In this document: positions 20,776-41,897 of the stretch, piece after piece
Position numbering within the stretch: position 1 is the first letter of the stretch
Layout: each line of letters begins with the position of its first letter
Assembly (NCBI GenBank): GCA_902536455.1
Contig: CACAXN010000007.1
Coordinates: forward strand, 1-48,416
Direction: 5' to 3'
Origin: an uncultured Prochlorococcus sp.
GTDB lineage: Bacteria; Cyanobacteriota; Cyanobacteriia; PCC-6307; Cyanobiaceae
Length of the DNA stretch: 48,416 nucleotides
Made by a program: the position numbers and the translations under genes
The notes under the pieces: generated by a model
Database searches by the model: none
Told to the model about the DNA's origin: nothing
Seen by the model: the letters and a program-made list of their open reading frames with translations, nothing else

Positions 20776-21852
20776 ATGACGATCGCAGTTGGTAGCGCCC
20801 CACAAAGAGGATGGTTTGATATCCTCGATGACTGGTTGAAGCGCGACCGCTTTGTATTTATTGGTTGGTCCGGACTACTTTTACTTCCTTGTGCATATCT
20901 TGCTATAGGTGGTTGGTTCGTCGGAACAACATTTGTTACCTCCTGGTACACACATGGAGTTGCAAGCTCATACCTCGAAGGTTGTAACTTTTTAACAGCA
21001 GCTGTAAGCACCCCTGGTGATGCCATGGGACACAGTCTTCTATTTTTATGGGGTCCTGAAGCCCAAGGTAGTTTCGTAAGATGGCTACAACTTGGTGGTC
21101 TTTGGAACTTCGTTGCATTACATGGAGTATTTGGCCTAATTGGTTTTATGCTTCGTCAGTTTGAAATAGCTGGCCTTGTTGGAATTAGACCATACAACGC
21201 ATTAGCTTTCTCAGCAGTAATTGCAGTATTCACAAGTATTTTCCTTATTTACCCTTTAGGACAGCATAGTTGGTTCTTCGCACCTTCATTCGGTGTTGCA
21301 GCAATCTTCCGTTACATTCTGTTCATTCAAGGTTTTCACAATATCACTTTAAATCCATTCCATATGATGGGAGTTGCTGGAATTCTTGGTGGTGCTCTAC
21401 TTTGCGCTATCCATGGAGCTACAGTACAAAATACTTTGTATGAAGATACAAGTATTTACACAGATGGTAAGGTTCAAAGTTCAACATTTAGAGCTTTCGA
21501 TCCAACTCAAGAAGAAGAAACTTATTCAATGATTACAGCGAATAGATTCTGGAGTCAAATCTTCGGTATTGCTTTCTCAAACAAGCGTTTCTTGCATTTC
21601 TTGATGCTATTTGTACCTGTTATGGGTATGTGGACATCTTCAATCGGTATTGTCGGCTTAGCATTAAATTTAAGAGCTTATGATTTTGTAAGCCAAGAAA
21701 TTCGTGCAGCAGAAGATCCAGAATTTGAAACTTTCTATACAAAAAATATACTTTTGAACGAAGGTATGCGAGCATGGATGTCTTCTGTGGATCAACCACA
21801 CGAAAACTTTGTATTCCCTGAGGAGGTTCTACCACGTGGAAACGCCCTTTAA
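20776..21852 (+). CDS. psbD: Photosystem II D2 protein
   Basis: The 358-aa protein has five membrane helices. It includes [16 protein letters not shown] near the N-terminus. The redox-active tyrosine region, the chlorophyll and iron ligands in [10 protein letters not shown] and the plastoquinone region S-A-I-G-I-V-like helices follow in order. D2 pairs with D1 to hold the PSII reaction centre. The codon usage is visibly more GC-rich and optimised (GGT, AAC, TTC) than in neighbouring genes, consistent with high expression. psbC overlaps its 3' end by 17 nt. Confidence 0.99.
21820..21826 (+). promoter_or_regulatory. Shine-Dalgarno sequence for psbC inside psbD
   Basis: GAGGAGG lies 9 nt before the GTG at 21836 and within the coding region of psbD. 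It decides the psbC start and explains how the overlapping gene is translated. Confidence 0.85.
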
Positions 21853-23218
21853 TAGTTTACTTAGAGCCCCTAACCAGAGTATTGAAGAAACTGGTTATGC
21901 TTGGTATGTAGGTAACGCCAGATTAATTAATTTATCTGGCCGTTTACTTGGTGCTCATATTGCACACACTGGTCTTATTGTTTTCTGGGCCGGTGCAATG
22001 ATGTTATTCGAAGTAAGTCATTTCACATTTGATAAACCAATGTGGGAACAAGGCTTAATTTGTATGCCTCATGTTGCAATGTTTGGATTTGGAATAGGTC
22101 CTGGTGGAGAAGTTACTGATGTGTACCCATTCTTTGTGGCTGGTGTGATGCATTTAATTTCTTCTGCAGTCTTGGGATTTGGTGGTATCTACCATTCCTT
22201 AGCAGGTCCAGAAAAACTTGAGCAAGATTTTCCTTTCTTTTCAACAGATTGGAGAGATAAGAATCAAATGACTAATATCTTGGGTTATCACCTAATAGTA
22301 TTAGGAGTTGGTGCATTATTTTTCGTTTTTGATTGGATGTTCATCGGAGGCGCTTATGATACATGGGCACCTGGTGGTGGAGAAGTTAGGCTAGTCAGTC
22401 CTACATTAGATCCAAGAGTAATACTTGGTTACCTATTCAGATCTCCTTGGGGTGGCGCTGGTTCAATAATTGGTGTTAACTCAATAGAAGATATTGTTGG
22501 TGGTCACGTATATGTTGGAATTACCGCGATAATAGGTGGTCTTTTCCATATCTTTACCAAACCATTTGGATGGGCAAGAAGAGCATTCATTTGGAACGGT
22601 GAAGGACTATTAAGTTACGCACTTGGTGGAATTTGTGTTGCAAGTTTTATTGCTTCAACATTCATCTGGTTTAACAACACTGCTTACCCTTCAGAGTTTT
22701 ATGGTCCAACAAATGCTGAAGCTTCACAGGCCCAAAGTTTTACTTTCCTAGTGAGAGATCAAAGAATTGGAGCTAACGTAGGTTCAACAATGGGACCAAC
22801 AGGTCTAGGTAAGTATCTCATGAGATCTCCTACAGGTGAAATTATATTTGGTGGTGAAACAATGAGATTTTGGGATTTCAGAGGTCCTTGGTTAGAGCCT
22901 CTAAGAGGTCCTAACGGATTGAGCCTTGAGAAAATCCAAAATGATATTCAGCCTTGGCAGGTAAGAAGAGCTGCTGAATATATGACTCATGCTCCAAACG
23001 CTTCTATCAACTCTGTTGGTGGAATCATTACAGAGCCTAATGCTGTTAACTTTGTTAACTTAAGACAATGGTTAGCTGCAGCTCAATTCTTCCTAGGATG
23101 GTTTACATTTATCGGTCACCTTTGGCATGCTGGACGTGCTAGAGCAGCCGCTGCTGGTTTCGAAAAAGGAATCGACAGAAAGAGTGAACCAGCTCTAGAA
23201 ATGCCTGATTTAGATTAA
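21836..23218 (+). CDS. psbC: Photosystem II CP43 chlorophyll-binding protein
   Basis: The 460-aa protein starts at GTG 21836 ([10 protein letters not shown]), as known for cyanobacterial psbC. It has six membrane helices with paired histidine chlorophyll ligands (for example A-H-I-A-H-T-G and G-Y-H-L-I-V-L-G), and the large lumenal loop E with [14 protein letters not shown], whose Arg and Glu help hold the manganese cluster. CP43 is the inner antenna that passes energy to D1/D2. It shares 17 nt with psbD and has a strong terminator 15 nt after its stop. Confidence 0.99.
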
Positions 23219-27576: not shown

Positions 27577-27759
27577 CTCGACAATATTTTTCTTTTTGGA
27601 TAAATTTCTTATTTAATGATACTCATGATGAACGAAATATATCAATCCTAAATATTTGAGCAAAATATAATTCAGAAGAGTGATGTTAAATTTACATCCA
27701 GATGAGAAGGTGAGGTCATAAGAAGATAATATAGGACTTATTTTTGAGTGATTATGAGA

Positions 27760-27866
27760 ATATCTTCCAATATCAAAAAACTTACAGATATTGGACGATA
27801 TAGGGCAGAGTCAATATAGTTAGTGAGTTTGCAAAAAAAAAGACCACTATTTCTAGAGGTCTTTTT
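27760..27866 (+). ncRNA. Candidate small RNA: large hairpin followed by an intrinsic terminator
   Basis: Arms 27760-27774 (ATATCTTCCAATATC) and 27787-27801 (GATATTGGACGATAT) pair 13 of 15 positions around a 12-nt A-rich loop. A rho-independent terminator ends at 27866. No open frame uses this terminator on the plus strand, which suggests a noncoding transcript starting near or before 27750. It matches no RNA family that I recognise. Confidence 0.45.
27837..27866. terminator. Strong bidirectional intrinsic terminator
   Basis: AAAAAGACC (27837-27845) pairs with GGTCTTTTT (27858-27866), with three further pairs inside across one mismatch and a 4-nt loop. The A and T tracts would allow termination in both directions. 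No annotated gene ends next to it on the plus strand. Confidence 0.85.
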
Positions 27867-27915
27867 GGTTTTACTAAATCAAGTGTTTCCTCGTTTCCAC
27901 TGTTTTAGTAAAACC
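27867..27915. repeat. Perfect 12-bp inverted repeat
   Basis: GGTTTTACTAAA (27867-27878) and TTTAGTAAAACC (27904-27915) are perfect inverted copies separated by 25 nt. The repeat directly abuts the terminator. It could be an RNA stem, a protein-binding site or the remnant end of an older mobile element. Confidence 0.6.
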
Positions 27916-28059
27916 ACTCCTACACACACTTTTAGATTACGGCATCTATTTCTTTTCCGTGGAAGGAGTAAATGGAAAGTTACTTAACTGTCACATGTTT
28001 CAGTAAATTTAAAAGGTTTTGGTTTTTAAAAAAGATTTAAGTAAAGTCATAAATCAACG

Positions 28060-28246: not shown

Positions 28247-28262
28247 CGGAGAGGGTGGAATT
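28247..28262 (-). repeat. Distal attachment site: partial copy of the tRNA-Ser 3' end
   Basis: CGGAGAGGGTGG (28247-28258) is identical to 33263-33274, the discriminator, acceptor and T-arm end of tRNA-Ser. The match extends to 16 nt with one mismatch (A for G). As a direct repeat it marks the left junction created by integrase-mediated insertion. Confidence 0.8.
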
Positions 28263-28315
28263 GTAGTTAGCACTATATGGCACTACATGTCACTAAAAAC
28301 GAGGTGATTTATCAG

Positions 28316-28339
28316 TTTTACATGTGTTTTTACATGTGT
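28316..28339 (+). repeat. Left arm-type repeats, two tandem copies of TTTTACATGTGT
   Basis: Copies at 28316-28327 and 28328-28339 are directly adjacent. The same motif occurs three times at the right end in the same orientation. The second copy extends to an 18-nt match with the right end (28327-28344 and 33136-33153). This is the expected layout of binding sites for the N-terminal arm-binding domain of the integrase. Confidence 0.7.
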
Positions 28340-28367
28340 CTGAATTAAACCTTTGTTATTAGTCCCC

Positions 28368-28529
28368 ATGAAATGCCAAGTCCAACTATTTGTAGCAGGA
28401 CAAATCATTAAAGAAGAAATGGTTTGCCGAGACTACGAGCATGCTAGAGAAATAGCACTAGCAAGAAACCCTAACACTCACATTCTAGGAGTAACAGCAG
28501 TATCTGCATTTGATAGGGAGATAGGGTAA
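28368..28529 (+). CDS. Small protein, first gene of the serine recombinase operon
   Basis: The 53-aa protein runs from ATG 28368 to TAA 28527-28529 and shares one base with the recombinase start (TAATG). It begins M-K-C-Q-V-Q-L-F-V-A-G and contains a predicted beta-strand, a helix (D-Y-E-H-A-R-E-I-A-L-A-R-N-P) and a final strand (H-I-L-G-V-T-A-V). Small proteins of this beta-alpha-beta look occur in marine picocyanobacteria and their phages, as I recall, without known function. Translational coupling suggests a role with the recombinase, such as a regulator or accessory factor, but this is inference. Confidence 0.65.
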   Translation: MKCQVQLFVAGQIIKEEMVCRDYEHAREIALARNPNTHILGVTAVSAFDREIG

Positions 28530-29197
28530 TGAATTGCACAACATTTGATACCCCTGTTACTGCAACACAAATACTGGAGTCTGAAGGTAACGAAATACAG
28601 TATCAAAATCCAAGAGTATTTGGACTATGGAGATGCTCTACTGATACACAAGACCAAGAGCGACAAGTAATCGCACTTAAGGAAGCAGGAGCAACAAGAA
28701 TATATGGAGACAAGATAACTGGGACTTCAGACTTTAATGCAAGACCAGAATTAACAAGATGTCTGGAAGAAATGCAATCAGGAGATTTACTAATAATTTC
28801 TGAATTATCCAGATTAAGTAGAAGTTTTCTAGGCATGGTTAATGAAGTAAGCAAGTTACTAGAAAGAGGAATCCAGATAAAGACTCTAGACAAGAGACTG
28901 GATACAACAGCAATGCCAAAAGAGATAACTATGCTCATAGTTTCCATACTTGGATATGCTGCATCTCAAGAATTAGCACAGATAAAGAGTAGGACTGCTG
29001 AAGGTAGAGAAGTTGCTAAGTCCAGAGGGGTTAAGTTTGGAAGAAAGAAGACCTATTCTCAATCACAAGTTTCCACCATATTGGAAATGAGAAATAAAGG
29101 TCTTGGATATGGAAATATCGGCAAAGCAATGGGTATGACCAAGACAATGGTTAGGAGGATAATTCTAGAAAATGATTTTGATCAAAATGAGAAATAA
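28529..29197 (+). CDS. Serine recombinase (resolvase/invertase family)
   Basis: This is a 222-aa small serine recombinase. The catalytic serine is S37 in W-R-C-S-T-D-T-Q-D-Q-E-R-Q, the usual Y-x-R-V-S-T motif. The active-site region S-E-L-S-R-L-S-R-S near residue 95, the E helix with E-L-A-Q-I-K-S-R-T-A-E-G, and a C-terminal Hin-type helix-turn-helix (~178-215, G-N-I-G-K-A-M-G-M-T) are intact. About 27 extra residues precede the usual start. It would catalyse resolution or inversion at paired sites. It is an unusual companion to the tyrosine integrase in an element this small. The last codons overlap the next gene and contain the palindrome TTTTGATCAAAA. Confidence 0.92.
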   Translation: MNCTTFDTPVTATQILESEGNEIQYQNPRVFGLWRCSTDTQDQERQVIALKEAGATRIYGDKITGTSDFNARPELTRCLEEMQSGDLLIISELSRLSRSFLGMVNEVSKLLERGIQIKTLDKRLDTTAMPKEITMLIVSILGYAASQELAQIKSRTAEGREVAKSRGVKFGRKKTYSQSQVSTILEMRNKGLGYGNIGKAMGMTKTMVRRIILENDFDQNEK

Positions 29198-29435
29198 ACT
29201 AATAATTCTATTAGCAAGTATCTGTCTTTTCCCTCCTGTTTATTCATGTCCCATACAGGAGGAAGACAAGCACCAGATGTTAAGTGAGTTGTGCTCTATG
29301 GATGATGGAGATTGGTCTAGCAACAGATTAAACGAGATGATTATCATGCTTAAGTTTGGAAAATTACCATCAGAGAAAAACATCAAAGGTAATCAGGCAA
29401 TGGCAGCAGTTACATGCAATTTGGAGTATCGCTAA
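29187..29435 (+). CDS. Small exported protein with three cysteines in the mature part
   Basis: This 82-aa protein starts at ATG 29187 (an alternative start at 29172 would spoil the signal peptide). The signal peptide is M-R-N-K-L-I-I-L-L-A-S-I-C-L-F-P-P-V-Y-S followed by Cys. The site is a poor lipobox because of the Tyr at -2, so signal peptidase I cleavage is as likely as lipidation. The mature part is acidic with further cysteines (E-L-C-S-M, V-T-C-N-L). It overlaps the recombinase by 11 nt and the next gene by one base. No family is recognised. A role at the cell surface or in the periplasm is inferred from the signal alone. Confidence 0.7.
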   Translation: MRNKLIILLASICLFPPVYSCPIQEEDKHQMLSELCSMDDGDWSSNRLNEMIIMLKFGKLPSEKNIKGNQAMAAVTCNLEYR

Positions 29436-29680
29436 TGAAGAGATTACTGATATTAATACCTCTACTACTTCTTCCAACTAATGCTCAGGCAATCACATGG
29501 GATGAATTCTTCGCAGCATTAAAAGACCACCGCTACGACCATTTATTCCCAGTCCACGCAACTAATAAAACAGTCACTTGCATCCAGATAGTCACTTGGG
29601 AAGAGTATGTGCAAGGGTCAGGAAGACATAAAGGTTATGTAAGACACCAGAAGAATAAAAGGCATATTCCATGTCCATGA
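29435..29680 (+). CDS. Small exported basic protein
   Basis: This 81-aa protein starts at ATG 29435, sharing one base with the preceding stop (TAATG). A clean signal peptide (M-K-R-L-L-I-L-I-P-L-L-L-L-P-T-N-A-Q-A) precedes a mature part of ~62 residues beginning I-T-W-D-E-F-F. The mature part has two cysteines (V-T-C-I-Q and the C-terminal I-P-C-P) that could form a disulfide, and a basic C-terminal segment rich in His, Lys and Arg. I do not recognise it. It is the last gene of the four-gene coupled operon. Confidence 0.7.
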   Translation: MKRLLILIPLLLLPTNAQAITWDEFFAALKDHRYDHLFPVHATNKTVTCIQIVTWEEYVQGSGRHKGYVRHQKNKRHIPCP

Positions 29681-30158
29681 TGCGGCATGACACACCGCAG
29701 TTATACCAATGGATTTGGAGGAATGAGAATAAGGGATGCGGTAACAAAAGAAATGTCTGTTTAAATATGCGTGCCTTTTGTATCTCTCTCCTCCTTAGCG
29801 TGCGTATGATGCGGATTTGATTTCCACTTAGAGCATGATTTATCAGTAATTATGAAATGTCAGGGAATTTGTCATGACTTGTCTGGACATGGCACGACAT
29901 GGCACTAAACCCTAGTCATACCAATAGATTTGTGATATTATTACATTAATGTTTCACTAAAAGTAGTGAAAGTATAAATAGATTTAGTCCAGTATCCTCT
30001 ATAGCGATTTAGTTGAGTTTATCTCTCTAGGGGTATTTGCTGCGTATCAGTTGTAGTCAGACTGAAGCACTATCAGATGTGGTCTGTGTGTTAGGGACAA
30101 AATTGGTATTAGCAATGTATTACTGGGCGATTTCTTATCAATCACCCTATACCTCGTT
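29681..30158. other. 478-nt noncoding region with hairpins and repeats, candidate origin or regulatory region
   Basis: No coding frame of note. The region has TGCGG/CCGCA flanking 29686-29704, a direct repeat ATACCAAT(G/A)GATTTG (29703-29717 and 29918-29932), tandem GACATGGCAC units (29886-29905), a perfect 8-bp hairpin TTTCACTA-AAAG-TAGTGAAA (29952-29971) and a small hairpin with GGG/CCC ends (30125-30147) just upstream of the Rep-like gene. It should contain the promoter of that gene and is the best place for an origin. Confidence 0.5.
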
Positions 30159-30839
30159 ATGAAAACAACTAAAGATAAATTCCTTAAAAAGCATCAAGCA
30201 AAGATAAAAAAGGAAGAGTCTAGAAAGAAGAGGGTTTCTAAAACATCACTCATAGAAACCTCTCCTTTCATTAGAAGAAAGATACGAGATGCACATACCA
30301 AGTTTCTACTCCAACAAGTAGATTCTGGTTTCTTCTCCCCCAGGTGGTATATCGTTTTTCTATTAAAAGAGAAAGATGAAAGATTAAATGATTTTGATCA
30401 AAACCAAGAAGATTACTGGGTAAAAGACATCACTCATATCCGAAACATGTTTTATCAAGAATACTATCAAGGAGATAGAGACTGGAAAAACAAGATAGAT
30501 AGACCAAAGACCATATGGGGACTGGAATTTGGGAAAACAGGGACTAATCCACACATAAATCTTCTAGTAGAGAAAACTAAAAGGGAATGGGATGAGTCAT
30601 TTCTTACAAAACTATTTAATGAAGATTTACCCAAAAAGGTTAAATGTATGAAGTCAGAAGATTCAGCATCTGTGACTGACTTTAAGACATCAGGACTTCA
30701 TGGATACATCAACAAAGAAGCAACATGGGAATTCTCCCCAATTATTTACTCAATAAGCGACTATGAAAAGCACCCTAAAACACAATCAACTAACCATCAG
30801 TTATCCAAACAATGGAAAAACTATGGACATAAACCATGA
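30159..30839 (+). CDS. Possible divergent HUH-type replication initiator or relaxase-like protein
   Basis: This is a 226-aa basic protein with a Lys/Arg-rich N-terminus. Three spaced segments recall rolling-circle Rep proteins: a hydrophobic strand W-Y-I-V-F-L-L (63-69) as motif I; G-T-N-P-H-I-N-L-L-V-E (128-138) as motif II, where the second His of H-U-H is Asn (H132, N134); and G-Y-I-N-K-E (182-187) as motif III, with Y183 as possible nucleophile and K186. The order and rough spacing fit, but one metal ligand differs, so activity is uncertain. It heads a four-gene coupled chain and follows a hairpin-rich noncoding region. The function is my inference. It could equally be an unrelated element-specific protein. 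Confidence 0.5.
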   Translation: MKTTKDKFLKKHQAKIKKEESRKKRVSKTSLIETSPFIRRKIRDAHTKFLLQQVDSGFFSPRWYIVFLLKEKDERLNDFDQNQEDYWVKDITHIRNMFYQEYYQGDRDWKNKIDRPKTIWGLEFGKTGTNPHINLLVEKTKREWDESFLTKLFNEDLPKKVKCMKSEDSASVTDFKTSGLHGYINKEATWEFSPIIYSISDYEKHPKTQSTNHQLSKQWKNYGHKP

Positions 30840-30951
30840 ATTATTTCTAATTAACAGAGAGTATGGAATCTCTAAATCTAAATTTGCAGTTAAAGCAATA
30901 GAAGAGAAGATTCAGAAAATTAAAAAGATTAAAACCAAAGGAATATTATGA
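30823..30951 (+). CDS. Very small protein of the element
   Basis: I take ATG 30823, giving 42 aa (M-D-I-N-H-E-L-F-L-I-N-R ...). It overlaps the end of the Rep-like gene by 17 nt and the next gene by 4 nt. It is strongly basic with a C-terminal Ile/Lys-rich helix. An upstream ATG at 30763 would lengthen it to 62 aa but lies deeper in the preceding gene. Size and charge could suit a DNA-binding accessory protein. No family recognised. Confidence 0.45.
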   Translation: MDINHELFLINREYGISKSKFAVKAIEEKIQKIKKIKTKGIL

Positions 30952-31085
30952 AAACTAACCTTACTGCAATGGAAAAGAAACTAATAGAGAAGATTTCACG
31001 AAAACAGAAGGAGGGAGACTTCTGGTTAATCAATCACTTATATGCAGAGTATGAAAGAGTCTTTAAGAAACCATTTAATGGATAA
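30948..31085 (+). CDS. Very small protein of the element
   Basis: A 45-aa frame starts with ATG overlapping the preceding stop (ATGA) and ends at TAA 31083-31085. It begins M-K-T-N-L-T-A-M-E-K-K-L-I-E-K-I and continues with F-W-L-I-N-H-L-Y-A-E-Y, a helical amphipathic pattern. No function is recognised. The tight overlap supports its being translated. Confidence 0.5.
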   Translation: MKTNLTAMEKKLIEKISRKQKEGDFWLINHLYAEYERVFKKPFNG

Positions 31086-31090
31086 ACTTG

Positions 31091-31246
31091 ATGCCTAAAA
31101 AGAGAAAGACATTCCAAAAATTCATAAAAGATTTAGTCTTTAATAATCCAAGAGCAGATAGACAATATCCAATGGATGGAGACTTTAATGACCCTGATTG
31201 GTTAGACCGAAATATGCTTTATGACGGGAAAAAGAAGAAAGACTAA
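31091..31246 (+). CDS. Very small protein of the element
   Basis: A 51-aa frame runs from ATG 31091 to TAA 31244-31246, 5 nt after the preceding gene. It is basic at both ends (M-P-K-K-R-K; K-K-K-K-D) with an acidic middle (D-G-D-F-N-D-P-D-W-L-D). It overlaps the convergent AlpA-like gene by 4 nt. No family recognised. Confidence 0.5.
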   Translation: MPKKRKTFQKFIKDLVFNNPRADRQYPMDGDFNDPDWLDRNMLYDGKKKKD

Positions 31247-31428
31247 GCAAAGTTAGGTTGGGTATTAATCCATTTATCAATGATTTTTTCATTCCATCCA
31301 ACTATGCGACTATTTCCAAGAGGGATTTGCTCAGGGAATCTACCTTGTGAAATCCAACGATAGATTGTGCGTTTTGATAGTCCAGTTTTTTCTACGACTT
31401 GCTTGATACGAAGTATTTTGATTTGCAT
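31243..31428 (-). CDS. alpA: AlpA/MerR-like helix-turn-helix regulator or excisionase
   Basis: The 61-aa protein is a winged helix-turn-helix of the AlpA type: I-K-Q-V-V-E-K-T-G-L-S-K-R-T-I-Y-R-W (helices 1-2), then the wing F-P-E-Q-I-P-L-G-N-S-R-I-V-G-W, with final helix I-I-D-K-W-I. In satellite phage P4 and related elements such proteins activate or assist integrase and excision. It is upstream of the integrase only in genomic order: both are on the minus strand and AlpA lies downstream of int by 414 nt, so it has its own promoter. A perfect 11-bp inverted repeat sits immediately before its start. Confidence 0.88.
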   Translation of the reverse strand: MQIKILRIKQVVEKTGLSKRTIYRWISQGRFPEQIPLGNSRIVGWNEKIIDKWINTQPNFA

Positions 31429-31842
31429 TGATTTAAGAGAAAAGGTTGATTGGGTTTTTTCTCTTAACTTGTGAGTTAGGCGAAGACAGGGTGGGAATGT
31501 CTGTCAGATAATAATGCTCCAGAGGAGTCTTTGTAGTATTCAGTTTTGATCAAAACCATTTGGTTTCGTTACTATTATTATAACTTCTTCAGAGGTCTCT
31601 GTGTGCCATTTGTGGACAGTTTAAGTAGATAGATATAGCATTCATAACCCATTGCTATCATTGATAAGTTTAATCTTTAATTAAGGCACTTAATCGCACT
31701 TATTCGTTATTACTAATTACAACTAATTAACGATTAATTGTAGTTATTAATTATTAACAATTAGGGAGTCTATATTAAAAACTTCCCTATTCGTAATCTA
31801 TAAAGTCTTGCTCTTGCCTTGTAAAAATTTTCAGATTAAAAA
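31429..31842. other. 414-nt AT-rich noncoding region between int and alpA
   Basis: Contains the alpA leader hairpin, the palindrome GTTTTGATCAAAAC (31543-31556) and a run of TTAAT/ATTAA-rich sequence at about 31675-31760 with imperfect palindromes (for example CAACTAATTAACGATTAATTG). The last may be an AT-rich unwinding region or simply low-complexity sequence. No gene is visible. The promoter of alpA should be here. Confidence 0.45.
31433..31467. promoter_or_regulatory. Perfect 11-bp inverted repeat in the alpA leader, operator candidate
   Basis: TTAAGAGAAAA (31433-31443) and TTTTCTCTTAA (31457-31467) flank a 13-nt spacer. The repeat ends 4 nt before the alpA ATG. As DNA it could bind a dimeric regulator; as RNA it would form a hairpin that masks ribosome entry. 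There is no T tract after it on the minus strand, so a terminator is less likely. Confidence 0.55.
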
Positions 31843-33072
31843 TTATACTTCTAGACCATTTTCTAAAAGTAAATCACTCCATTCATTCATGAATTTAGTC
31901 CTTTCTTTAATGAAACTAGAGCGGTCATAAGCACCAAGAATCTTATCTCTATCAAAATGTGCTAACTGCAATCTAATAATTTCTTGAGAATAACCAAGTT
32001 TCTCCCTCCCATGAGTCATTGCCATTGCTCTAAACCCATGAGTAGTCATCTTGCCCTCGTAACCTAGATTTTTAATGTGATGATTTGGACTAGAGGGATT
32101 GATATAGGGATACTTTTTACCACGAGGACTGAAGAAGACCCATTCTTCATCACCATTAATTGCTTCTAATTTCCTAAACAACTCCAAAGCAGAAGATGAT
32201 AGAGGTGTTAAGTGCTCTCTTTTCCCTTTCATGAATTCTGCAGGAGTAGTCAACATCTTTTCATTCCAATTAATGTCGCTCCATTTAGAGGAAACCAAAG
32301 ATGATGCTCTAAGGAAGCAAAAGGCAGCAAGTTTAACAGCAATATTTGTCTGAAATTCTCCCTTACACTTATTTTCAGAGACAGCAACTAGGAAGGCAGG
32401 GACTTCTTTCCAGTCAGTTAATGCAGGACGAGACTTTGCTCTATGTCCAGTCTGGGTATTTTCAGAAGAGCGACAAGGATTCTCATCATTAGAAGAATAA
32501 AGACTATAAATGTCTATCGCATAGGCGAATACTTGCCTCATTACACCTAACAACTTTCTACCTTGCTCTGGTTTTCCTCTACTTACATGAGACTGCAGAA
32601 ATCTGATGCACTCTGGACGAGAAATCTGTTTAATTGGATATTTTCCAAATTTAGGAAGAATTTGATTCTTTAATTTGAGTTTTACATCAGCAGCAGTAGT
32701 TGGTCTCTTCTTAGTTGAGTAATCGCCAAACCATTCCCAAGCAATCTCCTCAAAAGTCTGTGACCCTATACCTGTAACCTCTTCCTTTTCCTTAGACTTC
32801 TCTAATTTAGGATTTCTTCCTTGCTTCCTTAATACATCTAATCTATTCTTTTCTTCCCTTGCTCTTTTAAGAGGCATTACTACACCAGAAGCATTGCAAT
32901 AAGTGCCTATATGAATACTCTCACTCTTACCTTGCTTAGAGGGTGGGAATAGATATTGCCAAACCCAATACTTACTGCCATTTGGATGGATTTCCACATA
33001 AAGTCCTTGACCAGTAGATTTCACATATCTTCTCTCTTTTACTGGCAATGCCTTAACATCGCCCTCTGTCAT
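31843..33072 (-). CDS. int: Tyrosine integrase, P4 type
   Basis: The protein has 409 aa from ATG 33072, preceded by AAGGTGA at suitable distance. A GTG at 33084 would add four residues but has no ribosome site. The N-terminal ~95 residues match the arm-DNA-binding domain of P4-like integrases (G-Q-G-L-Y-V-E-I-H-P-N-G-S-K-Y-W). A core-binding domain (~110-210) and a catalytic domain follow: Arg in F-L-R-A-S-S-L near 257, H-G-F-R near 345, L-A-H-F and the nucleophile Tyr in G-A-Y-D-R near 385. It should integrate and excise the element at the tRNA-Ser 3' end located 178 nt upstream. Confidence 0.95.
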   Translation of the reverse strand: MTEGDVKALPVKERRYVKSTGQGLYVEIHPNGSKYWVWQYLFPPSKQGKSESIHIGTYCNASGVVMPLKRAREEKNRLDVLRKQGRNPKLEKSKEKEEVTGIGSQTFEEIAWEWFGDYSTKKRPTTAADVKLKLKNQILPKFGKYPIKQISRPECIRFLQSHVSRGKPEQGRKLLGVMRQVFAYAIDIYSLYSSNDENPCRSSENTQTGHRAKSRPALTDWKEVPAFLVAVSENKCKGEFQTNIAVKLAAFCFLRASSLVSSKWSDINWNEKMLTTPAEFMKGKREHLTPLSSSALELFRKLEAINGDEEWVFFSPRGKKYPYINPSSPNHHIKNLGYEGKMTTHGFRAMAMTHGREKLGYSQEIIRLQLAHFDRDKILGAYDRSSFIKERTKFMNEWSDLLLENGLEV

Positions 33073-33085
33073 TAAGTTTCTCACC

Positions 33086-33148
33086 TTTACATGTGTCAGG
33101 ATTTTTACATGTGTTTACTATACCACATACATGGGTTTTTACATGTGT
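33086..33148 (+). repeat. Right arm-type repeats, three copies of TTTACATGTGT
   Basis: Copies at 33086-33096, 33102-33114 and 33136-33148, all in the same orientation as the two left copies. The first two flank the integrase translation start and leader, so integrase could also repress its own gene by binding here. Confidence 0.7.
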
Positions 33149-33262
33149 CTGAAATGTGTTATCATGACATTAACTGACACCTCGTGTCACAAACTTTCCT
33201 TATAATCAACTGTTATCACTTAGTTTTGGCATTATCTGGCACTAAGTGACATTCTGAATATC

Positions 33263-33347
33263 CGGAGAGGGTGGGATTCGAACCCACGAATAGTTTCCTA
33301 TTAAACGATTTCGAGTCGTTCGCTTTCGACCACTCAGCCACCTCTCC
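33263..33347 (-). tRNA. tRNA-Ser(CGA)
   Basis: The 85-nt gene on the minus strand has a 7-bp acceptor stem (GGAGAGG/CCTCTCC), discriminator G, D arm, anticodon loop CTCGAAA (plus-strand 33309-33315; anticodon CGA at 33311-33313), a long variable arm typical of serine tRNA and the T arm GTGGG-TTCGAAT-CCCAC. CCA is not encoded. It reads UCG codons. It is the target of the integrated element, which begins at its 3' end and leaves the tRNA intact. Confidence 0.97.
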
Positions 33348-33411
33348 AGCTTTTATTGATTATCTCCAAAATTATATGAAAAATTTATGATCTATTTATT
33401 TATCTTAATTT

Positions 33412-40838: not shown

Positions 40839-41897
40839 CTAGTTTTGAGTAATTTTTGTATTCTCAATATTGTCAAAAGCTTGACCTATTTTCTTAAAGT
40901 CAAATCCCATTGCTCTTAGTGCGTGCCAAAGATGACCTTGTAAGAAAAAGAAACCCAAATAAAAATGAGTATTAGCAAGCCAAGCTCTTGAGCTATATGC
41001 TCCTGAACCTAAATCTACTGTATCAGTAAAATAAGGGGCGAATTCAAATTGAAGCTTTAAGGGTTCTCCATATAGATCAACTGGATATATGGTTGTATTT
41101 GAAGCACACCAAAAAGCAGCAACAAAAGCCATATAAGAAACACCAACAACTGAATATGACAAAATTGCCTCAGCGCCAAGTAATCCTTTTCCTTTAAATT
41201 CTGTATATTCTCCAAATTGTTTAGTACAAATATGGAAAACTCCTCCAATGATGGTTAAGAATGCTACAAAAGCATGACCTCCCATAACATCTTCCAAACT
41301 ATCTATTTTTAAGAAATCAAATTGATGATTCCAGATAGCGGCAATATCTAAATTGTAAATAACTTGTCTTGTAGATCCTATTGCTGGGTCGTATATTCCA
41401 TGAATACGAGCCCATTCAACAAACATAATTGCTCCAAGCCCAAGAAAAATTAAATGATGACCAAGAATAAAAGTTAATTTATCTGGATCATCCCATTCAA
41501 AATCAAATTTTTGAGGCTTACTATTCTCTGGATAGTCTCCAAGGTCACCTGCAAATTTATTGGAGTGTAATAACCCTCCAGCACCTAATACCGCTGAGAA
41601 AATTAGATGTAATGTGCAAATTACAACAATTCCATATGGTTCTGTAATAACACCATTTTCAATGCCACCAATTCCAATACCTGCGAGGTGAGGCAAAACA
41701 ATTGCTTTCTGTGCGCCCATTGGAATACTAGCGTCGTAACGAGCCAATTCAAACAATCCAAAAGCTCCGGCCCAGAACATCATTAAGCCTGCATGGGCAG
41801 CATGAGCAGCTATGAATTTACCTGAACGGCCAACAACACCAGAATTTCCTGCGTACCAGTCATAGGTGACATCAGATTTTCCGTAAGTTTGTAACAC
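40839..41897 (-). CDS. pcb: Chlorophyll a/b-binding antenna protein, Pcb/IsiA (CP43') family
   Basis: The 352-aa protein has six membrane helices with paired His chlorophyll ligands (A-A-H-A-A-H-A-G, G-H-H-L-I-F-L-G, Q-G-H-L-W-H-A). It lacks the large lumenal loop that CP43 has between helices 5 and 6. That is the Pcb/IsiA signature, and Pcb replaces phycobilisomes as antenna in Prochlorococcus. It lies 143 nt downstream of isiB on the same strand, the isiA-isiB type of neighbourhood, which points to the iron-stress form associated with PSI. Whether it is the main PcbA or a second iron-induced Pcb must be tested by phylogeny. Confidence 0.92.
   Translation of the reverse strand: MLQTYGKSDVTYDWYAGNSGVVGRSGKFIAAHAAHAGLMMFWAGAFGLFELARYDASIPMGAQKAIVLPHLAGIGIGGIENGVITEPYGIVVICTLHLIFSAVLGAGGLLHSNKFAGDLGDYPENSKPQKFDFEWDDPDKLTFILGHHLIFLGLGAIMFVEWARIHGIYDPAIGSTRQVIYNLDIAAIWNHQFDFLKIDSLEDVMGGHAFVAFLTIIGGVFHICTKQFGEYTEFKGKGLLGAEAILSYSVVGVSYMAFVAAFWCASNTTIYPVDLYGEPLKLQFEFAPYFTDTVDLGSGAYSSRAWLANTHFYLGFFFLQGHLWHALRAMGFDFKKIGQAFDNIENTKITQN

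Follow-up and report, generated by a model that had tools for sequence, protein, structure and literature searches.

Tycheposons of Prochlorococcus are tRNA-bordered elements with tyrosine recombinases, for which an excerpt of PMC10872708 gives a size of 4–200 kb. Elements at tRNA-Phe and tRNA-Cys described in a portion of PMC10187409 likewise have a tyrosine integrase by the tRNA and frequently a small serine recombinase nearby, and actinomycete integrative and conjugative elements (AICEs) such as pSAM2 combine a site-specific integrase with a rolling-circle (HUH) initiator in one integrated element (PMC3218068, in the section on these elements). We analyzed 48,416 nucleotides of an uncultured Prochlorococcus sp. 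(contig CACAXN010000007.1, positions 1 to 48,416; this whole stretch is called the window), in which a 5.0-kb element, within the size range of tycheposons, lies at tRNA-Ser(CGA). It encodes a tyrosine integrase, an AlpA-like regulator, a serine recombinase and a putative replication initiator of the HUH type, and we consider it, with a probability of about 0.58, to be an integrating, plasmid-like replicon of the tycheposon kind. What is noteworthy is the unlisted Rep-like family, which would make compact tycheposons plausible replicons; the presence of two recombination chemistries is not the unusual part. The matter bears on how tycheposons multiply and pass between cells of Prochlorococcus, the most abundant phototroph of the ocean.

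Anatomy of the element

The borders and the principal genes of the element are the following (aa, amino acids; E, expect value; att, attachment):
28247..28258, + strand: copy of the att core at the end remote from the tRNA, CGGAGAGGGTGG, matching 33263–33274 at all 12 nt
28268..28339, no strand assigned: distal arm region (putative function) with TGGCACTA/TGTCACTA-type repeats and two TTTACATGTGT repeats
28529..29197, + strand: serine recombinase, 222 aa, Resolvase domain E 1.4e-24, nearest solved structures are resolvases
29850..30158, + strand: non-coding stretch, candidate replication origin, 96–98% identical between this element and its sister (see below), like rep
30159..30839, + strand: HUH-type Rep-like protein, 226 aa, with E123, H132-I-N134 and Y183-x-x-K186 (family alignment)
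31243..31428, − strand: AlpA-like regulator, candidate excisionase, 61 aa, Pfam Phage_AlpA E 1.4e-16, also PHROGs
31843..33084, − strand: tyrosine integrase of P4-type domain layout, 413 aa (Pfam, PHROGs, NCBIfam)
33086..33148, no strand assigned: integrase-proximal arm region (putative function) with three TTTACATGTGT repeats
33262..33348, − strand: target gene tRNA-Ser(CGA), intact (tRNA call and Rfam tRNA match)
33263..33274, − strand: att core in the 3' end of tRNA-Ser(CGA), 12-nt identity with the distal copy

The 5,016-bp element is bounded on one side by the 3' end of tRNA-Ser(CGA), 12 nt of which recur at its other border. The partial tRNA copy 5.0 kb away that had been claimed in the original prediction is thus real, as the two 12-nt sequences are identical and 5,016 bp apart. 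When up to one mismatch was allowed, the 11-mer GGAGAGGGTGG occurred at two places in the window, the att core and its copy, both of them exact, whereas 0.16 occurrences were expected and two were reached in 2 of 100 shuffles. The repeat TTTACATGTGT has five copies in all, which lie just within both element ends and nowhere else in the window (0.06 expected); by this position, they are candidate arm sites for the integrase or excisionase. The integrase adjoining the tRNA is full-length, with arm-binding, SAM-like, central and catalytic domains, and has the family match predicted for it; the label "P4-type" follows from its Arm-DNA-bind_3 domain, which we take to be associated with this type. 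The Phage_AlpA match likewise bears out the AlpA-like regulator.

The locus shows three features of a tycheposon: insertion at a tRNA gene that recurs in part at the opposite border, an encoded tyrosine recombinase, and variable presence among relatives. Its anatomy, an element-free relative and a sister copy in another genome support the view of a compact tycheposon-like element in tRNA-Ser(CGA). As predicted, no nutrient cargo, capsid or packaging gene was recognized among the ten ORFs (open reading frames) scanned. What the analysis shows is the anatomy, the full-length recombinases, element ends that recur in the sister of another genome, a site without the element and a recent exchange by horizontal transfer.

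A Rep-like protein family with the motifs of HUH initiators

The element had been called minimal, which falls short of its content, as it carries a likely replication module; the gene at 30159–30839 had gone unrecognized. The encoded protein (hereafter Rep) had no significant match in Pfam, PHROGs or NCBIfam. In an alignment of 21 family members, several of which are close kin (the two-frame relatives L104 and L105 were left out, and the partial L107 and L113 were kept), the constant motifs are a strand with F-H-Y, a glutamate followed by x-H-x-H-L, and then Y-x-x-K. The best-conserved positions include H132, Y183, K186 and S200 (21 of 21 rows), E123 (20) and the second histidine of motif II (19); the tyrosine of Y-x-x-K is thus found in every row and H-x-H in 19 of the 21, the window and the sister having H-I-N. 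Such a motif set is the signature of single-tyrosine HUH replication initiators. The motif scheme of these initiators is laid out in an excerpt of PMC3218068. When a profile of 20 rows (also without L113) was compared with the PDB, six sequences were obtained up to E 10 and every one was an HUH nuclease: parvovirus NS1 (E 0.007) and five variants of adeno-associated virus (AAV) Rep (E 1–2), hence effectively two proteins. The H-x-H motif lines up in the three alignments shown among these matches. Judged from these motifs and profile matches, the family is likely to be of the HUH-type Rep kind.

Of 400 genomes from the window's taxonomic family, 20 contain matches to this Rep family; they belong to 11 of 59 genera, and the counts include the genome of the window and that of the sister, G475. 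In a class-wide sample searched with a narrower profile, matches occurred in 4 of 388 genomes, all of them from the same taxonomic family. Two tiny co-oriented ORFs of 40–81 aa follow rep directly in 12 of 14 loci, a count with no chance control that includes related groups (window/L005, L063/L064 and L086–L088); the loci scored as lacking them are L155 and L158, and for L155 three small, mutually overlapping ORFs are listed there as well. The layout recurs outside Prochlorococcus. In G140, from another genus of the family, tRNA-Ser(CGA) and a ACGGAGAGGGTG copy 8.6 kb off enclose the integrase, an AlpA-like ORF (assigned by eye) and Rep, and in G249, from yet another genus, serine recombinase, Rep and integrase follow one another in the window's order. 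Within Prochlorococcus, 6 of 18 other integrase regions have Rep-like genes (L086, L087, L088, L090, L093 and L167). Those of L086, L087 and L090 matched the 21-row profile at E 1e-8 to 2e-10, and 500 shuffles of each gave no match at E 10; the one of L093 was added by eye, and those of L088 and L167 were obtained with a profile that already held the others, L086–L088 being mutually close. In the open-access literature we found no printed description of the Rep module, the original tycheposon paper lying outside that coverage.

Several related loci have features of their own. L063 (7508–13149), from another genus, is a mini-element of integrase and Rep, and the ORFs flanking it share DNA-glycosylase-like sequence (named by eye), which suggests insertion into a protein gene. 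L054 (4544–12011) has ParA, a serine recombinase, a ParB-methyltransferase fusion, Rep and the integrase, i.e. a plasmid-like partition set in an integrated element. At L200 (4960–5640), a divergent Rep-like ORF lies 3.6 kb from a serine recombinase, with no integrase detected.

A sister element, recent transfer and an element-free site

In a pattern scan for the integrase with one genome per species, a single relative was obtained, from Prochlorococcus sp. AG-418-C09 (L005). Its element sits in the same tRNA; the genes follow in the order seen here, with an extra insertion near AlpA, and the integrase is 85% identical. The tRNA-side flank of the sister is a homologous but diverged tRNA-futA region, and its distal outside DNA, of which the contig holds only about 95 bp, had no blastn match to the window flank. 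The host genes futA and piuC have synonymous divergences (dS, NG86) of 2.2 and 1.8 between the two genomes, i.e. they are saturated. For the element genes, the values were 0.05 for Rep, 0.07 for the 87-aa ORF, 0.12 for the 62-aa, 0.30 for the 88-aa, 0.39 for the integrase, 0.56 for AlpA, 0.73 for the serine recombinase (1.67 with YN00), 0.79 for the 52-aa, 0.93 for the 58-aa and 1.5 for the 45-aa ORF, those of the small ORFs being noisy. Since most element genes are far less diverged than their host neighbors, we conclude that horizontal transfer was recent. Identity to the sister is a mosaic: positions 29850–30850, comprising rep and the non-coding DNA upstream of it, are 96–98% identical and the remainder 70–94%, as if origin and rep travelled as one unit.

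The tRNA region was matched in 150 of 151 Prochlorococcus genomes, although weak matches may be other tRNAs. The same gene set does not occupy this position in all relatives: of 266 Prochlorococcus genomes, no more than 2 have the integrase at an identity of at least 85%, namely that of the window and that of AG-418-C09 (other full matches, at most 35%), and the tRNA of G357 is element-free. In G357, the intact tRNA core comes 175 bp after a block that matches window positions 27725–28004, and nothing there matches the element. The final 240 bp of the flank in the window align poorly, so that excision is not proven to the base.

In other genomes (L045, L046 and L047), stacked partial tRNA copies and seemingly stripped element ends were seen by eye at tRNA-Ser(CGA). 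In L046 (11368–12340), differing arm-like repeats lie between stacked partial tRNA-Ser copies, apparent scars of several successive insertions at one tRNA. This tRNA seems to be a repeatedly used insertion site. Beside the element, at 27862–27931 on the − strand, there is a Cyano-1 small RNA; DNA resembling it is found at many sites across Prochlorococcus genomes, in some near tRNA-Ser.

Proposed mode of replication and alternative explanations

We propose that the tyrosine integrase recombines the 12-nt 3' end of tRNA-Ser(CGA) and would release a 5.0-kb circle, the AlpA-like protein serving as excisionase or switch. The HUH-type Rep would then nick an origin, probably in the conserved non-coding stretch upstream of rep, and start rolling-circle copying, while the two tiny ORFs after rep probably serve DNA binding and the setting of copy number. 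The serine recombinase, judged by its closest structures, could convert multimeric circles to monomers before integration or transfer. Because no transfer gene was recognized in the element, transfer from cell to cell would have to rely on something external, be it phage particles, vesicles or a helper conjugation system. If the element does encode its own replication initiator, some tycheposons would be small replicating circles, for which circular forms, single-stranded intermediates and copy number can be predicted. Vectors for Prochlorococcus might then be constructed on a native replicon, and a family not found in the standard libraries would gain a function.

Several results weigh against this proposal. 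Other members of the Rep family had weak matches at most (the best in Pfam, DUF6762 at E 4e-4, in 2 of 7 members scanned). With a 24-row profile (without L107 and L113, five rows added), NS1 was the second of three PDB matches at E 0.65, and with a 5-row profile none of the four matches was an HUH protein. The structure model of Rep, made from two near-identical rows, has low confidence (mean predicted local distance difference test score, pLDDT, of 40). Given that these two alignments show no HUH preference and that the model is poor, the HUH assignment is likely but not proven. Four more divergent Rep-like ORFs have less regular motifs; the ORF of L087 is without the first histidine, and in those of L090 and L093 H-T-H is present but Y-x-x-K is not clear. 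It speaks for the proposal that 14 of the 21 Rep relatives have a tyrosine recombinase nearby, but none was detected in the other 7 regions, and of those 14 there were four or five whose integrases had gone into the profile used. Folding of the candidate origin as RNA or DNA was not above that of shuffled sequences (z −0.85). No Rep relative appeared in viral contigs in six scans, and no convincing one in phage records (two Rep queries) or plasmid records (one Rep query). A comparison of Rep with a 7-row alignment of Gp2 (YfjJ/YagK) by hhalign gave a probability of 4.5; membership in the Gp2 family, which the similar order of motifs had suggested by eye, was rejected since this match is not significant. 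Finally, the Rep proteins of the window and its sister have L68 in place of the motif-I histidine, N134 in place of the second HUH histidine and I196 in place of a conserved aspartate, residues that all other rows keep where they have residues there (two partial rows are without motif I). With these replacements, the window Rep may not nick DNA, and its catalysis may be altered or lost. Asparagine in a metal site has a precedent in HEN relaxases, by which the window Rep could still work. That PDB support comes from two proteins and that the motifs weaken in distant relatives makes the replicon, and the new class put forward below, slightly less probable and a decaying element slightly more so.

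Decay would mean that Rep is a dead remnant and that the element now rarely moves, either through its integrase without further help or through homologous recombination within the tRNA-Ser island. The three lost Rep positions fit this, as do the stripped scars seen by eye at the same tRNA in L045, L046 and L047 and the ratios of nonsynonymous to synonymous divergence (dN/dS), which are 0.35 for Rep, on few changes, and 0.67–0.77 for the 62-aa and 87-aa ORFs. However, the compared genes are open in both sisters, the dS of the element is far under that of the host, so that transfer was recent, and rep with its upstream DNA is the best-conserved block; we regard decay as quite improbable. A phage satellite, for which a helper cyanophage would copy and package the element and Rep or the 58-aa ORF would merely recruit phage machinery, appears unlikely as well. 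P4-like satellites are laid out with a P4-type integrase and AlpA as here, the 58-aa ORF is a member of PHROG 685, with matches in 325 phage records, and tycheposons are listed among proposed phage-satellite families in an excerpt of PMC11389934; yet no capsid, terminase or packaging gene was recognized in the ten ORFs scanned, and the negative scans of viral contigs and phage records for Rep relatives speak against it too. Of the suggestion that the element is phage-satellite-like, what persists is the one weak pointer of a 58-aa ORF shared with cyanophages, while capsid-hijack genes were likewise not recognized among those ten ORFs. In an integrative mobilizable element, the HUH protein would be a relaxase and serve, together with a helper system, to initiate conjugative transfer and not replication; this is in our opinion very improbable. 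Relaxases and Reps have a common HUH fold and catalytic motifs. Integrative mobilizable elements with Rep-type relaxases are described for Streptococcus in an excerpt of PMC7563843; still, no coupling or mating gene was recognized in the element (helper conjugation in Prochlorococcus was not searched for), and the two tiny ORFs straight after rep resemble the copy-control layout of plasmids.

The integrating, plasmid-like replicon is therefore the reading we retain. Beyond it, we advance tentatively, at somewhat less than even odds, that the window's element belongs to a new class of integrating rolling-circle replicons of picocyanobacteria. Its defining features would be a new HUH initiator family and the two tiny ORFs that follow the initiator gene; combined with these would be tyrosine integrases and, in most Prochlorococcus cases, a serine recombinase. 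The Rep of the window's element would have a non-canonical metal site, E-H-N where H-U-H is usual.

The serine recombinase and its pairing with the integrase

The serine recombinase is full-length, as predicted: besides its Resolvase domain, it is collinear with gamma-delta resolvase over the catalytic domain and the C-terminal helix-turn-helix (query 30–215 to chain 3–182, E 4e-24). Among solved structures, gamma-delta and Tn3 resolvases rank above invertases, whereas the best PHROG (125, E 6.8e-45) is named "DNA invertase" and the best NCBIfam matches, far under the cut-off, are XisF (excision) and Mpi (invertase), so the family names conflict. Resolution of multimers, one of the two roles originally suggested, is therefore plausible from the closest structures, though the invertase PHROG and the XisF and Mpi names point to other roles. 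For the other, inversion of a segment, none of 15 inverted-repeat pairs stood out by eye as flanking an invertible segment. The palindrome TTTTGATCAAAA (29176, 30392 and 31544), considered as a crossover site for inversion, was rejected since by eye it is missing from the sister sequence.

The combination of two recombinase chemistries, which had been taken as special to this element, proved to be the rule around this type of integrase. In 17 of 18 other Prochlorococcus loci with such an integrase (all other integrase matches, leaving out the sister and a 91-residue fragment of G390), a serine recombinase lies 0.1–8.9 kb away, as counted with our own profile at E 1e-3. The largest distance, 8.9 kb, is that of L166, and the sole locus without one, L160, sits close to the end of its contig (0.4 kb). 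Most of the 106 genomes searched also have a distinct, core-like serine recombinase (about 25% identical), but none of the 17 counted proteins appears to be core-like, their best matches to the core-like copy being at most 40%. Those of L092, L093 and L167 are 67–77% like the integrase-adjacent copy of G329, and in G344 a separate serine recombinase accompanies each of three integrases, with a single core-like copy in addition. The nearest tRNAs at the integrase loci, where found, were tRNA-Ser(GCT), tRNA-Ser(CGA), tRNA-Ser(TGA) and tRNA-Asn, which denotes proximity only. As the pairing is the rule and a serine recombinase near another picocyanobacterial tyrosine integrase is already in print (PMC10187409, in the excerpt cited above), a serine recombinase beside the integrase is no oddity.

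Small ORFs, the candidate origin and neighboring features

The unassigned ORFs of the element, Rep aside, have at most 88 aa:
28353..28529, + strand: 58-aa ORF of PHROG 685 (function unknown), matched by tblastn in 325 phage records
29172..29435, + strand: 87-aa ORF, signal-peptide-like start (by eye), kept in the sister, cargo candidate
29414..29680, + strand: 88-aa ORF, signal-peptide-like start (by eye), kept in the sister, cargo candidate
30763..30951, + strand: 62-aa ORF overlapping the end of rep, ribbon-helix-helix-like by pattern only
30948..31085, + strand: 45-aa ORF, second tiny ORF after rep
31088..31246, + strand: 52-aa ORF, conserved in the sister element (82% at the aa level)

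Nearly all phage records that match the 58-aa ORF are named after cyanobacterial hosts. L158 has an exported-looking ORF between serine recombinase and rep, in a place matching that of the window ORFs at 29172–29680. The predicted structure of the 62-aa ORF has strands followed by two helices (pLDDT 72), and since the model had no Foldseek match at E 0.001, "ribbon-helix-helix" remains a judgement by pattern; ten such tiny ORFs after rep had no significant Pfam match. The candidate origin contains an 8-bp perfect hairpin (29952–29971) and 14-nt direct repeats at 30045 and 30071. Promoter and terminator scans were at chance level.

Away from the element, two Rfam matches to IsrR, the isiA antisense RNA, were obtained in the window at 22250–22433 (− strand) and 41324–41495 (+ strand). 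They are antisense to psbC-like (21809–23218) and Pcb/IsiA-like (40839–41897) genes, respectively (named by eye). The match at 41324–41495 is barely over the cut-off, so coding similarity may explain both.

Comparison with known systems

The CP4-57 island, of the P4-like type, has intA, alpA and yfjJ and resembles the element in its integrase and AlpA; YfjJ relatives on plasmids are annotated as inovirus Gp2, and the YfjJ/Gp2 proteins had no significant alignment with the Rep family, as given above. The integrases at tRNA-Phe and tRNA-Cys, according to the same excerpt of PMC10187409, form a novel set apart from those of tycheposons and use other tRNA targets, and this excerpt mentions no Rep. 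AICEs carry an FtsK-like Tra protein (PMC3218068, same section), and no such domain was recognized in the window's element. Compared with tycheposons, the element is without recognized nutrient cargo or packaging genes and has instead a putative HUH-type Rep with tiny partner ORFs.

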